Shown here: piece after piece, positions 21,721-39,690 of the stretch
How positions within the stretch are numbered: the stretch's first letter is position 1
Layout: each line of letters starts with the position of its first letter
Source: a virus
Length of the DNA stretch: 40,411 bases
Virus record (IMG/VR): IMGVR_UViG_3300024423_000005
Coordinates: 1 to 40,411 of that record
Strand: one strand, 5' to 3'
Notes under the pieces: generated by a model
The model's database searches: none
The model's input: only the letters and a program-made list of their open reading frames with translations
Told to the model about the DNA's origin: nothing
Translations under genes and position numbers: made by a program

Positions 21721-21740
21721 CCCCATTATACCACAGATGG
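21721..21740 (-). promoter_or_regulatory. Repeat promoter, copy 1 (extended -10)
   Basis: On the minus strand CCATCTGTGGTATAATGGGG carries TATAAT with TGG in front (extended -10) and no clear -35. The same 20 bases recur exactly at 37088-37107, and 17 of them at 35640-35656. The ATG of the next gene lies about 20 bases downstream of TATAAT, giving a very short leader. Confidence 0.6.
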
Positions 21741-32795: not shown

Positions 32796-34359
32796 GATAG
32801 GCTCTCCTCTTTCTGGTCTTTTTGACTAACTTGTTAAATGCGCCAGACGAGGCATCCGCTTGGTCCCGATACGTGCTGAAGGGAACAGTACAAATTTCCT
32901 CTAACCATGCCCAATTCCATGGCCCCCGCACTAGCACAACTTTTCCGTTTTCCGCCTGAACAGCGAACGGTTCCAACCGAGCATCCTTGCTACCAGTAGG
33001 ACGATCCCTACGAATCCTAAATCCCTTTAGACTGGCAATCGTGGCATCTGCACTCTCCTTACCACCGCTGCCCGGCTCCTGCTCAATGTAAATTTCTGGT
33101 CCCGGATCAGCAATCTCATAGTGTTCATAGTCATCATCCCACTTAAGAATAGCGTACTGTTCCGCAGCCTCTAATATTCTCTTCTCCCGATTGGCCGCCG
33201 ACCACTGCCCCCGAAAAACCCGCTCAACATAGGTGATGCCGTCAAGATGGGCAAGCATTACACCGGCTGTAAAAGCCCCTCCCCCCTCTGTAGCCGCCTT
33301 GTCCCAATAGATGACCCTGGTTGCGCCATCGGGAACGGCATCAACGATTTTAAACCAATTCCGTTTAAACCGATGGCCTTCAGGGGCACGAGGCGAACTG
33401 ATGTATTGAGCATTCCAAGCAGAGGTTCCAACATCATCCCGGATATCCCCCAATGTGGCTGCGCTAAATAGGGTGGGACAAAGGGCTTCCCCTGGCTCCC
33501 GAAGTAGGGGGTCTGGTAGACCAGCGGATAATCCTAGTCGTTTGTTGTTTTCATCTCGGTCTTGTTGGGTTTCGGCCAAAGCTGGCAGTCTGAGAATGGT
33601 CCACTTATGAGATTGGTCTTGAAGCAGTCGGCCCGCCAGATCATCCTCGTGCCATCTAGTAGTGACTATTACGATAGCCGCATTTTCTCGCATTCGGGTT
33701 CTGAAGGTGGTCCTATACCACTGCCATATACTCTCTCGAATAACGGGGGATTGGGCTTGTTTCCAATTCTCGAAAGGGTCATCGACGATGCCTAATAGCC
33801 CACCGTGGCCGGTGATTGGCCCCCCTACACCACTGGCTAACATCTCTCCTGTGTGGCCCCTGATGCGCCAATGCTCTCTGGCCCGTGCCGATCGATCGAT
33901 AGAGATAGAGGGAAATAGCTCCCGGAATTCCGGGGATTCTACCAGCGCTCTACATTCCCAAGATTTGGCATGGGCCAGACTGGCTCCATAAGAGGTGAGA
34001 ATAACGGGATCATCAGGGCGTTTAGCCAACCAAAAAGCAGGGAACCCAATAGAGACCAGGGTAGTCTTTCCATGTTGCGGAGGGGCGAAAATCATGAGCC
34101 GAAGTATCTTTCCATGTAGCACTTGATCAAGATGGTCTGCTACTAACCGGTGGGCCTTGCTAGCTACGTACTTTGGCAAAGTGTATTGGTTGAAATTGAT
34201 CAACTTGCGACGGGCAGCTTTTATTGTCTCTGGAGAGAGCCGATCGGCCCGATATTGTTTGTTAAGTTGTCGAAGATGCGCAAGGAAAACCCGCTTACGA
34301 GAGGTGGGCCATGCCTGCCAATTGCTACCCGATGAGGGTTGGGGTGCCGTTTGCAGCAT
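32782..34359 (-). CDS. Terminase large subunit
   Basis: The 525-residue product has Walker A APPQHGKTT (92-100), a hydrophobic strand and Walker B GLLGIVDDP (187-195), and a coupling motif VTTRWH (232-237). The nuclease part follows, with VIYWDKAATEGG (near 335), and a basic end (KKTRKRRAYHG). It drives DNA into the prohead by ATP hydrolysis and cuts at the ends. The start overlaps the small-subunit gene by 35 bases, with GGAGG 9 nt upstream. There is no inserted intein. Confidence 0.9.
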   Translation of the reverse strand: MLQTAPQPSSGSNWQAWPTSRKRVFLAHLRQLNKQYRADRLSPETIKAARRKLINFNQYTLPKYVASKAHRLVADHLDQVLHGKILRLMIFAPPQHGKTTLVSIGFPAFWLAKRPDDPVILTSYGASLAHAKSWECRALVESPEFRELFPSISIDRSARAREHWRIRGHTGEMLASGVGGPITGHGGLLGIVDDPFENWKQAQSPVIRESIWQWYRTTFRTRMRENAAIVIVTTRWHEDDLAGRLLQDQSHKWTILRLPALAETQQDRDENNKRLGLSAGLPDPLLREPGEALCPTLFSAATLGDIRDDVGTSAWNAQYISSPRAPEGHRFKRNWFKIVDAVPDGATRVIYWDKAATEGGGAFTAGVMLAHLDGITYVERVFRGQWSAANREKRILEAAEQYAILKWDDDYEHYEIADPGPEIYIEQEPGSGGKESADATIASLKGFRIRRDRPTGSKDARLEPFAVQAENGKVVLVRGPWNWAWLEEICTVPFSTYRDQADASSGAFNKLVKKTRKRRAYHGLA

Positions 34360-35008
34360 CCTCGGTTTCCTCCTCTGTCGGATTGTCGTTCATTTGCATT
34401 AGAAGCATTTCAAGCTCTCTTCGAATAACGCCATCCAAAGCATGCCCGGACAGTTTTACATGTTCTGTAGGACTATCCGTTGCCAAACGCTGTAATGCAC
34501 TGGCCTGTTTGAGAGCCACTGCAATTTGATGCAAACCCACGTTAACCTGCTGGCGCAATACCCGTATCTTTTTGCCAGATGCCGGATCAGTAACCTCGGC
34601 CAGACCGCCCTGCAAGAATAAAGGCAACACATTGAGACATTCAGTTGCCCTCTCCCTTAGTGCTGCCCCATCGCCCCACTCTGCTTCAAGAAGCGCCTCT
34701 CTCCTGTACTGCCACTTCTCAAGATTTAATTCGTAGTTGATCTCATCAAAACGCCCGACCCGGCTCTGCCATAAAAACTGAACCGACCATCGCCTTAGCG
34801 TGGCCGGTCTGCGTGTAGGTGGAAGTATCTGACCCTTCTCGTACTGCTCTCTATAACGCAAGGCCAAAGCCCGCAAGCCCCGACCCGGCCCCATCAACGC
34901 ATAATCCTTCAAAGCAACATTGGCCTTGTGAGATTCACCCTTCACCCGCGCCAATGGGTCATCGTTCAAATACGTCTCTATCTTTGGTGTGTACGCTGCT
35001 GTGGCCAT
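34325..35008 (-). CDS. Terminase small subunit
   Basis: The 227-residue product begins MATAAYTPKIETYLNDDPLA and contains a helical N-terminal half with GRGLRALALRYREQYEKGQI, an Arg-rich RPATLRRWSVQFLWQSRVGR and a long helical C-terminus ending acidic (NDNPTEEETEDA). Small terminases recognise the pac or cos site and activate the large subunit. Position directly before the large gene and the helix-turn-helix-like N-terminal part fit. GAGGTGGG lies before the ATG. Confidence 0.75.
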   Translation of the reverse strand: MATAAYTPKIETYLNDDPLARVKGESHKANVALKDYALMGPGRGLRALALRYREQYEKGQILPPTRRPATLRRWSVQFLWQSRVGRFDEINYELNLEKWQYRREALLEAEWGDGAALRERATECLNVLPLFLQGGLAEVTDPASGKKIRVLRQQVNVGLHQIAVALKQASALQRLATDSPTEHVKLSGHALDGVIRRELEMLLMQMNDNPTEEETEDAANGTPTLIG

Positions 35009-35031: not shown

Positions 35032-35235
35032 TCACGCAATCCGCGCCCCAATCCGCCCATCTCCACGAAAATTTAATGCATATTTCCAATGTGAGCGCTT
35101 GCACTCACAAATAACCTCATAATATTTCATGCCGGGGTTAGTACGTGGTAGATTGTGGTCCCACTCATGCAATCTACCACACTTGCAACGGAACCGCCTG
35201 CTATTATGGTGATGCTGGATACTGTAGCTCTCCAT
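35032..35235 (-). CDS. Small zinc-finger-like protein (67 aa)
   Basis: The 67-residue product has RFRCKCGRLHEWDH and YYEVICECKRSHWKYA, two C-x-C pairs with nearby His that may bind one metal. GAAGGG lies 6-7 nt before the ATG. It is the first gene after the attC-like site (R' end at 35268-35274), so it could be the next cassette. Its product may bind nucleic acid. Function unknown. Confidence 0.55.
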   Translation of the reverse strand: MESYSIQHHHNSRRFRCKCGRLHEWDHNLPRTNPGMKYYEVICECKRSHWKYALNFRGDGRIGARIA

Positions 35236-35267: not shown

Positions 35268-35372
35268 ATCTAACTAACATTCGAGCTAACCCGCCACCGG
35301 GTGGAGCGTGTGTACGCTCTGTGGATATTGCACCCACCTTTCCCACCGGTGGCGAGTTAGCGATTGTTAGGC
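35268..35372 (-). repeat. attC-like imperfect palindrome downstream of the 35367-35627 gene
   Basis: Read on the minus strand, the site begins GCCTAAC (RYYYAAC, R'' box, sharing TAA with the stop codon of the gene) and ends GTTAGAT (GTTRRRY, R' box). Between them are two arms (35343-35370 and 35274-35304) that pair over about 26 bp, with one mismatch, one 2-base bulge and one 1-base bulge. The 38-base spacer contains a small hairpin AGCGTGTGTACGCT. Length (105 bp), boxes, extra-helical bases and position after an ORF match integron attC sites. No integrase is in the window. Confidence 0.6.
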
Positions 35373-35627
35373 CGCCTTTATTTCTGCCCCCTCGTCCAGA
35401 AATTCTACCATACGCAGAAATTCACGGCGGGGGGCGGAAATGGAAACGATTGGCGCAATCCCACAATGCGGGCACGGCTCACCACGCAGGCTCTTTCTCG
35501 GCGTATTGGCAGCGATAGTAATCGTCAGCACGGTTCCTCTGGGTATGCTGACGATGCCGTTTGTGGCTTCGATCAGCAAGCGAACTTTTTTACCCTCCCA
35601 GTCTTTTTGGCTTTTTGGAGCCTTCAT
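35367..35627 (-). CDS. Small hypothetical protein with own promoter, cassette-like
   Basis: The 86-residue product starts MKAPKSQKDWEGKKVRLL, is beta-rich (VSIPRGTVLTITIAANTP) and contains CPHC (52-55), then a helix. The leader TATAATGGGGAGGTAGGAGATTATG gives promoter, site and start in 25 bases. Its stop codon lies in the R'' box of the attC-like site. This promoter-ORF-attC layout is like an integron gene cassette. Function unknown. Confidence 0.6.
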   Translation of the reverse strand: MKAPKSQKDWEGKKVRLLIEATNGIVSIPRGTVLTITIAANTPRKSLRGEPCPHCGIAPIVSISAPRREFLRMVEFLDEGAEIKAA

Positions 35628-35639
35628 AATCTCCTACCT

Positions 35640-35656
35640 CCCCATTATACCACAGA
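35640..35656 (-). promoter_or_regulatory. Repeat promoter, copy 2
   Basis: Minus-strand TCTGTGGTATAATGGGG (17 bases shared with copies 1 and 3) with extended -10 TGGTATAAT. The ATG of the 35367-35627 gene is about 15 bases after TATAAT, so the transcript would begin just before the ribosome binding site. Confidence 0.6.
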
Positions 35657-36923: not shown

Positions 36924-37111
36924 CCAAACGCCTTAATTGGGCTTGCCCGCCAATGCAAGAATGCTCTCTTTGCAATATGCAGACGCAATTGTTCCCATAA
37001 CCACATGCCCCTCTCATCTCGGCATCTTGGGACTAGGTGAGAACAATCAACAATTCACCACGTCTTGCTGCTCTATTGCCCGCACACCCCCATTATACCA
37101 CAGATGGGTCT
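36924..37111. other. Gap with repeat promoter and a doubtful short frame
   Basis: This gap of 188 bases holds the third repeat promoter (37088-37107). A minus-strand frame from ATG 37006 to 36908 codes 32 residues (MWLWEQLRLHIAKRAF at the start) with GAGAGG only 3 nt before it; I do not call it. No hairpin terminator is clear. Confidence 0.3.
37088..37107 (-). promoter_or_regulatory. Repeat promoter, copy 3
   Basis: Minus-strand CCATCTGTGGTATAATGGGG identical to copy 1 over 20 bases. Here a -35-like TTGTTG lies 17 bases before TATAAT. The next gene on that strand is the GT87-like membrane protein. Confidence 0.65.
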
Positions 37112-38354: not shown

Positions 38355-39206
38355 CTATGCCCCCTTCAAGAGACGGGGTGGGGTTTCATCCTCTGGAAAC
38401 AGTTCCCTCTGAACCGGCCTGCCGATCGGCTGCAACGATTTGTTAGACCCCATCGCAGCCATCTGCCAGAGCGATCGCTGCCGGAGCCGCTCGACGGCGA
38501 TCTCACAATATTCCTCTGATAATTCTATGCCCACGGCGCGGCGGCCTAGCTGCTGGGCGGCTACGAGGGTTGTACCGCTACCCATGAATGGATCACAAAT
38601 ATGCAGACTGTTTGTGGTTTCTATTGCACGGATTGGTATACCAATCGGAAACGGGGCCGGGTGGGGCGTATTTGGCTTTTGTGGAAAATACCATACATCA
38701 CCACTGCCCGACGCCCCCTTGCTTTTTAATCTAAAACCGTGCTTTGCCAAAACCATTATCCATTCATGGGTAGGTACGTAGTGAGTAGTTGCAAAATTTA
38801 TCCCACCAGCACGCGCCCATATAATAATCTGGCGCAACGGCAATCCAGGATTAAATCGCAATGGGAGTTGAACTTCACCATTCTGTATTCTTGGTTTGTG
38901 ATTATAATAAATCGCCCCGGTGGGCGATAGGGCTGCCCACATCACTTTTAAGGCATTGCGTTGCCACGCCAAATATTCATTTGGCGGCATTGCATCATCA
39001 TAATCCTCATAACCATGCGCCAATCTTGCGGAAACCCATTTGCCTGACTTTAGCGCACCTTTCAGACCTCCCCCGGAGGATACACCCAAGTTATACGGTG
39101 GGCTTGTCACAACCAGGTCAAACGGCTCTATAAGTTGCGGCATCACCTCCAGGCAGTCACCGCGATAAATTGTAATTCCGTCTCGTTCATAGTACGGTGT
39201 TAGCAT
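38355..39206 (-). CDS. Beta-class DNA methyltransferase (N6-adenine or N4-cytosine)
   Basis: The 283-residue product has motif IV TSPPYNL (34-40) before motif I DPFMGSGTT (205-213), the order of beta-class amino-methyltransferases; GDCLEVMPQL (16-25) and VGIELSEEYCEIAVERL belong to motif X/II-like regions. TSPPY fits N4-cytosine or N6-adenine enzymes. Without a restriction partner here it probably protects phage DNA from host restriction. The start at 39206 overlaps the zinc-ribbon gene by 20 bases; the upstream sequence is weak in sites. Confidence 0.8.
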   Translation of the reverse strand: MLTPYYERDGITIYRGDCLEVMPQLIEPFDLVVTSPPYNLGVSSGGGLKGALKSGKWVSARLAHGYEDYDDAMPPNEYLAWQRNALKVMWAALSPTGAIYYNHKPRIQNGEVQLPLRFNPGLPLRQIIIWARAGGINFATTHYVPTHEWIMVLAKHGFRLKSKGASGSGDVWYFPQKPNTPHPAPFPIGIPIRAIETTNSLHICDPFMGSGTTLVAAQQLGRRAVGIELSEEYCEIAVERLRQRSLWQMAAMGSNKSLQPIGRPVQRELFPEDETPPRLLKGA

Positions 39207-39492
39207 AAGCCGCCAGCAAATCAGTGCCTGCGTCCACAGTGAATTCCTCATCGCAATCAAAACACATGATCACATCGACTGCTGCAAATACATCATTGTG
39301 AATCAATCCGCAGTTTTTTGAATCGCAATGAGGGCATTGGTATATCAGATCATCTTCCTTGTAGTGTGCGTTCTGGCGACATTTGTGGCATAGAAAATCT
39401 GGTGATTCGACCGGCAACCCGCAATCGCAATGCGTTCTCGGTTCTGGAATTGACGGGCCTTGTTTGGCCCACATTAACCCCTGTCCATACAT
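39187..39492 (-). CDS. Double zinc-ribbon-like protein before the methyltransferase
   Basis: The 101-residue product has three Cys/His clusters: HCDCGLPVESPDFLCHKCR, QCPHCDSKNCGLIH and CFDCDEEF. The arrangement could bind two zinc ions. The start at 39492 has GGGAGG 5 nt before it and overlaps the preceding 40-codon frame by TAATG. It may bind DNA, or be a partner of the methyltransferase, with which it overlaps. Confidence 0.6.
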   Translation of the reverse strand: MYGQGLMWAKQGPSIPEPRTHCDCGLPVESPDFLCHKCRQNAHYKEDDLIYQCPHCDSKNCGLIHNDVFAAVDVIMCFDCDEEFTVDAGTDLLAAYANTVL

Positions 39493-39614
39493 TACCGCCT
39501 CCCATCTGTGGATTGCGCCCAGCTTTCCCACCGGTGACGAGTTAGTAGCGATTCTCGATCAGGTGGTCGGGCTGTACGAGTTGTTAGGGGGCGCGTCAAG
39601 GTTCTCCTATTCAT
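39492..39614 (-). CDS. 40-residue arginine-rich frame over attC-like sequence
   Basis: An ATG at 39614 has GGGAGG 6 nt before it and codes MNRRTLTRPLTTRTARPPDR and onward to a TAA that overlaps the next ATG (TAATG). The DNA it reads through resembles two attC half-sites, so the peptide may be accidental, a leader, or a truncated cassette. The strong site and the stop/start overlap are the only support. Confidence 0.35.
   Translation of the reverse strand: MNRRTLTRPLTTRTARPPDRESLLTRHRWESWAQSTDGRR
39507..39590. repeat. attC-like half-sites without partners
   Basis: On the minus strand CCCTAACAACTCGTACAGCC resembles a left half of a 59-base element. About 30 bases on, a second left half, CTAACTCGTCACCGGTGGG, matches the left arm of the complete attC-like site at 35.3 kb with an extended match (about 45 bases with a few differences, through GCAATCCACAG). 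No right arms follow. The segment looks like broken or recombined cassettes. Confidence 0.45.
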
Positions 39615-39625
39615 TTTTTACCTCC

Positions 39626-39656
39626 CTTTGCAATAGTATATGGTACTATTGCAAAG
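39626..39656. promoter_or_regulatory. 31-bp palindrome, probable operator
   Basis: Two 13-base arms, CTTTGCAATAGTA and TACTATTGCAAAG, are perfect inverted repeats separated by 5 bases. No T-run follows, so it is more likely a protein-binding operator than a terminator. It is directly before GGGAGG and the ATG of the 40-codon frame, and after the partial gene at 39714. The sequence TTGCAATAGTA is AT-rich and may overlap a promoter. Confidence 0.65.
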
Positions 39657-39657
39657 C

Positions 39658-39690
39658 AACCTAACTATTCGAGTTCAGCCGCACGCGGGA
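39658..39690. repeat. attC-like half-site after the partial gene
   Basis: ACCTAACTATTCGAGTTCAG on the plus strand begins with RYYYAAC; on the minus strand the end reads CTCGAATAGTTAGG, like the right end of the complete site (CTCGAATGTTAG). No matching second arm is found nearby. It lies about 24 bases downstream (minus direction) of the stop codon at 39714. Confidence 0.4.

Follow-up and report, generated by a model that had tools for sequence, protein, structure and literature searches.

An attC-like hairpin behind a small gene in a tailed-phage genome: a possible degenerate or strongly divergent integron site

In a tailed phage, a hairpin stands behind a small gene and ahead of the terminase genes: is it an integron attC site? 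The locus lies in IMG/VR record IMGVR_UViG_3300024423_000005, a linear virus record of 40.4 kb, of which positions 1–40,411 were analyzed (hereafter the window). Terminase, portal and major capsid genes were present, bearing out the view of the sequence-only reading that this is phage DNA; the closest phage relative found was 59% identical in TerL, and no nucleotide relatives of the hairpin region were found among known phages. The hairpin (~100 nt, 35268–35372, minus strand) lies between an 86-aa ORF and a 67-aa ORF with the terminase genes beyond, and no other short-range inverted repeat in the whole window is as strong (Table 1). In our assessment the balance tips modestly towards a degenerate or strongly divergent attC that formed the 3' end of a cassette in the phage lineage.

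Read directly on the minus strand, the R''-like box GCCTAAC was found as the sequence-only reading had described it; the box conforms to RYYYAAC, and the TAA stop codon of the 86-aa ORF does lie within it. AACAA follows R'' on the gene strand and the polarity of the sequence is that of the gene, so that the site stands behind the gene in the canonical direction of a cassette. The letters of the second reported box, GTTAGAT (35274–35268), are also present and match R' by consensus alone, but they stand 4 nt beyond the usual place. With the spacing of known attC sites R' falls on GTTAGTT (35278–35272), which breaks GTTRRRY, and the 3' half-site scored 11.1 with GTTAGTT as R' versus -9.9 with GTTAGAT.

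Table 1. Coordinates of the hairpin, its parts and neighboring features in the window
Feature	Position	Strand	Basis or remark
67-aa ORF	35032..35235	-	begins 33 nt past the hairpin; terS follows at 35008
3' box region GTTAGTTAGAT	35278-35268	-	half-site scores and direct reading
Inner-stem 3' arm, L'-like, CCGGTGGCGGGTTAG	35286..35300	-	inverted repeat and direct reading
Variable apical region, two small hairpins	35301..35345	-	predicted fold
Inner-stem 5' arm, L''-like, CTAACTCGCCACCGG	35346..35360	-	fold and inverted repeat; pairs without extrahelical base
R''-like box GCCTAAC	35372-35366	-	direct reading; holds TAA stop of 86-aa gene
86-aa gene, function unknown	35367..35627	-	ORF; ends in R''-like box
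TGTGGTATAATGG, extended -10-like element	35642..35654	-	promoter-like; just upstream of 86-aa gene
N6_N4 DNA methyltransferase gene	38355..39260	-	cargo kind reported in phage-borne cassettes
attC-like 5' half GTCTAACAAATCGTTGCAGCCGAT	38425..38448	-	26.6 bits; no 3' half; in 3' end of methyltransferase ORF
Truncated second copy of hairpin L'' arm and loop	39512..39545	-	34 nt, 91% identity
attC-like 5' half CCCTAACAACTCGTACAGCCCGAC	39566..39589	-	16.2 bits; partnerless
attC-like 3' half GCGGCTGAACTCGAATAGTTAGG	39660..39682	-	right after stop of 39714-40409 gene

Folded as DNA, the hairpin was far more stable than its shuffles on either strand (z -5.3 for the minus strand, -4.9 for the plus strand and -6.6 for the trimmed plus strand), as befits the stable imperfect palindrome of an attC. 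The bottom-strand fold suggested by the sequence-only reading thus stood up in its stability, and failed in that the R''-L'' arm carries no extrahelical base. Of the bulges that had been placed on one strand, the predicted fold kept just one, 2 nt long and on the R'-L' arm, together with a C-A mismatch in the bottom strand; the inner L''/L' stem was continuous. Bottom strands of sites from aadA1 and from Tetrasphaera phage TJE1, folded the same way, had single extrahelical bases on the R''-L'' arm. In the hairpin as in the folded TJE1 site, the R stem of 6 bp gives way to a small mismatch. TCG/CGA pairs are predicted inside the central spacer of the hairpin; in the same prediction the spacer of the TJE1 site, which is reported to be functional, is also partly paired.

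Chance occurrence of the boxes with the stem was assessed against shuffled windows and against related phage loci (858 kb; 1.7 Mb counting both strands). In a pattern scan, RYYYAAC...GTTRRRY with a strong inner stem occurred at one place in the window; the box pattern with a stem score of at least 9 was absent from 100 shuffled windows (4 Mb), and with a stem of such strength it was absent from the 858 kb of relatives. Position matrices for the two half-sites were built from ~140 real attCs (class 1 integrons, Pseudomonadota, Acidobacteriota and three phages) and gave the hairpin 9.8 bits (5') and 11.1 bits (3'), a joint score of about 20.8–20.9, alongside a stem score of 15.3. The thresholds of the joint test (half-sites at least 20.9, stem at least 9) were reached together nowhere in the 858 kb of relatives or in 200 shuffled windows. 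Since 94% of real attCs score at least 20.9, the hairpin stands at the low edge of real sites. Its 5' half ranked third in the window, below those at 38448 and 39589 and tied with one at 32839–32816 (ATTTAACAAG..., 9.8 bits), all of them on the gene strand; the match at 32839, being inside terL, was put down to chance.

Two home-made attC covariance models with short calibration, R1 (28 sites) and R2 (136 sites), gave the hairpin 8.8 bits (E 3.9) and 9.1 bits (E 4.6), respectively, for ~40 kb. Both scores are at chance level, R1 having ranked three chance matches at other places of the window higher, and a search without a model hit is what the sequence-only reading had itself held to speak against an attC. 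Held-out known and new phage attCs scored 17–50 bits. Among these, R1 recovered at least 16 sites in Vibrio phage Va_90-11-286_p16, at least 12 in Shewanella phage M16-3 and three in TJE1 at 21–25 bits, the latter with extrahelical bases, unlike the hairpin with its 9 bits and none. Most Acidobacteriota arrays were also recovered by R1; one Acidobacteriota attC type scored poorly and was recovered by R2 at 16–36 bits, as were sites in three further viral contigs (16–50 bits). The failed match of the hairpin is attributed to its continuous inner stem, a 2-nt bulge in the opposite arm and the partly paired spacer. With these scores, an R' off consensus and an R''-L'' arm without extrahelical base, the evidence does not bear out the description of the hairpin as a complete attC; box patterns alone overcall attCs, and a consensus match made by eye can fail a structural model.

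No second full attC was found in the window by R1, R2 or the half-site scans, and no intact cassette array; besides one degenerate site, the window contains a truncated copy and three half-like sites. Published phage CALINs have at least two full sites, a number that defines the CALIN type and that the locus does not reach. The two best 5'-half matches of the window (38448 and 39589) are on the strand of the hairpin and within 4.3 kb of it. The half at 38448 scored above all background, the maxima being 16.1 bits in the 1.7 Mb of relatives (both strands) and 22.3 bits in 200 shuffles, and the half at 39589 was level with the former maximum and below the latter. The 38448 half may be a coincidence, since it lies inside the methyltransferase frame and the protein tail there is partly like that of a relative (PVQ..L; L198, see below). 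A 34-nt piece of the hairpin recurs at 39545 with 91% identity, and the 3' half at 39682, which has the same CTCGAAT spacer, scored only 5.3 bits, owing to 1 nt of extra spacing. At 39600–39660 (minus strand), a perfect palindrome with 11-bp arms (TTTGCAATAGT...ACTATTGCAAA) is followed by GGGAGGT and an ATG, and the 40-codon ORF beginning there runs over the attC-like halves.

Viral contigs were compared for similar arrangements. The best viral relative of the window's methyltransferase (N6_N4, 50% identity) was found in IMGVR_UViG_3300008113_002916 (L198; 12–1253), where a 28.4-bit attC directly follows the stop codon, with its best score on the strand opposite the gene; GCCTAAC is also where the next gene of that contig ends, and no full attC follows it. 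An 18-mer of the 38448 half led to IMGVR_UViG_3300029891_000006 (L157; 2598–3882), in which a D12-class DNA methyltransferase gene has a worn attC (20.8 bits) ahead of it and its stop codon within a good one (50.2 bits), likely a phage-borne methyltransferase cassette. In IMGVR_UViG_3300020042_005850 (L156), a 33.4-bit attC and an attC-like half (334–418 and 650–714) lie ~240 nt apart. The exact pattern CTAACTCGNCACCGGTGG had no match in viral contigs, and its 8 matches in 85k genomes were all judged by their flanks to be chance.

In bacteria, the closest resemblance was to Acidobacteriota integron attCs (L163–L166, L189), whose L''/L' sequences GCT(C)AACTCGGACC and GGTTAGC resemble the GCTAACTCGCCACC and GGTTAGC of the hairpin; unlike the hairpin, these sites have extrahelical bases and correct R' boxes and stand in long arrays beside intI. 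A BLAST search with the hairpin site against 297 Acidobacteriota and 398 Pseudomonadota genomes returned only chance matches of 24–28 nt, and no integron with the site was found in either set. In the Acidobacteriota sample (e.g. L164, L166, L189), an integron integrase was present in 48 of 149 genomes and at least two attC types occurred, one of which (GCCTAACCCTCCGCTCAACTCGGACC...GGTTAGCTTCATTCGTTAGGC) was poorly recognized by the model whose training sites came from Pseudomonadota and class 1 integrons.

The joint score unmatched in the null sets, the same-strand halves nearby and the methyltransferase relative with a good attC favor attC ancestry, which is more likely than chance resemblance and is the best single reading of the hairpin. 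The truncated second copy, the agreement of gene and site polarity, the L157 methyltransferase between two attCs and the published phage clusters with N6_N4 methyltransferases speak for it too. Against it count the chance-level covariance scores, the R''-L'' arm without extrahelical base, the bulge on the opposite arm, the R' off consensus, the window's lack of a second intact attC and of a junction upstream of the 86-aa gene, the orientation of the L198 attC, and the searches of genomes and viral contigs in which no integron with the site came up. Cassette origin, decay and low activity go beyond the sequence, fold, half-site statistics and covariance scores established here, and are what we infer. 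An integron gene cassette would have entered the phage lineage with the hairpin as its 3' end, and the stretch from 35.3 to 39.7 kb would be a worn, integrase-free cassette cluster. If the site ever worked, it would have done so as attCs usually do: the plus strand, which is the bottom strand for the flanking genes, would have folded, an integron integrase supplied by a host would have bound the R and L boxes, and one strand would have been exchanged at the R' box between G and TT; the present hairpin would probably be a weak or dead substrate that persists as an intergenic structure. Of the earlier proposal of an integron-type cassette in a phage, the ancestry is thus favored, and no intact array accompanies it.

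Phage-borne attC clusters are already on record. Qi et al. (2023) described 17 clusters of attC sites from phage genomes, with methyltransferases (N6_N4 included) among the cargo, CALINs in the virulent phages Tetrasphaera phage TJE1, Polaribacter phage P12002L and Pseudoalteromonas phage PH101, and recombination by IntI1 of five of the six phage attC sites tested (PMC9892861). The suggestion that phages may spread cassettes had already been published, with functional tests, and is as a general claim not new; the window adds a degenerate variant. With the published phage CALINs it shares an attC-like hairpin after a gene, a tailed-phage setting, methyltransferase cargo and the lack of an integron integrase. 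If attC ancestry is true, the locus is a further instance of integron cassette material in a tailed phage, showing signs of decay since its entry, and extends the link already published between attCs carried by phages and DNA methyltransferases.

The strongest competitor, possible and clearly less probable than attC ancestry, is an intergenic hairpin of the phage's own that merely resembles an attC, its boxes matching by chance, and that closes a moron-like unit (promoter, 86-aa gene, hairpin) as an mRNA-end or processing structure. The 86-aa gene starts 15 nt downstream of TGTGGTATAATGG, which is present in three exact minus-strand copies (21723–21735, 35642–35654 and 37090–37102), each at or just upstream of a minus-strand gene, and these are possibly a phage promoter family. 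Because the element recurs at two other phage sites, the promoter of the 86-aa gene looks phage-own, which goes against the cassette-borne promoter that had been proposed and fits an ordinary moron-type gene. No att junction was found in the window upstream of this gene; its protein had distant matches (~35% identity, E ~0.005) in enterobacterial plasmids and a few phage records, and no relatives in viral contigs. The start of the structure at the stop codon, the rejection of an attC by the covariance models, the almost equal folding of both strands and the strong hairpins of other sequence in many related phages all agree with a phage-own hairpin. Like the intrinsic terminators and moron-boundary hairpins of phages, it is GC-rich and directly follows a small gene with a promoter-like element; unlike them it has no T run after the stem, and boxes and an interrupted outer stem would be unexpected there. 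Against such an origin stand also the lack of any terminator-like match at this place, the absence of a similar site from 72 related phage loci, the joint box and stem score reached nowhere in the nulls, and the clustering of attC-like halves nearby. An intrinsic terminator as such was rejected for want of the T run, and no Rfam family matched the hairpin at threshold.

It is unlikely that the hairpin is a working attC of an undescribed type, whose missing extrahelical bases are tolerated by the native integrase of an unsampled host. The box and half-site signals, the gene context and the long stable stem agree with such a site, and real attC types do differ, as the poor R1 scores of one Acidobacteriota type show; yet R2, which recovers that type, does not recover the hairpin, and no bacterial array with the hairpin site was found among the genomes sampled. 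In published mutants, deletion of the extrahelical bases lowered attC x attI integration only ~6-fold, but it abolished attC x attC recombination, and deletion together with pairing of the central spacer cut integration 8.5x10^4-fold (PMC2727003). As the hairpin lacks extrahelical bases and its spacer is partly paired in the predicted fold, it is probably a poor recombination substrate.

Very unlikely, in our judgment, is a class of phage-adapted attC-like hairpins that have lost their extrahelical bases, and hence strand choice, and through which host integrases would still move anti-restriction genes during infection. Least probable of all is a signal for packaging (cos/pac) or replication, as the position ~260 nt before terS might suggest: in the 72 related phage loci nothing similar stands upstream of the terminase genes or near terL, on which ground the packaging-signal reading was rejected, and a partial copy of the hairpin lies 4.2 kb away. 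A gene adjoining that of the methyltransferase (39187–39480, minus strand) encodes a zinc-ribbon-like protein of 97 aa that weakly matches the Lar restriction-alleviation family (E 0.014, below cut-off), and the two are perhaps an anti-restriction pair.
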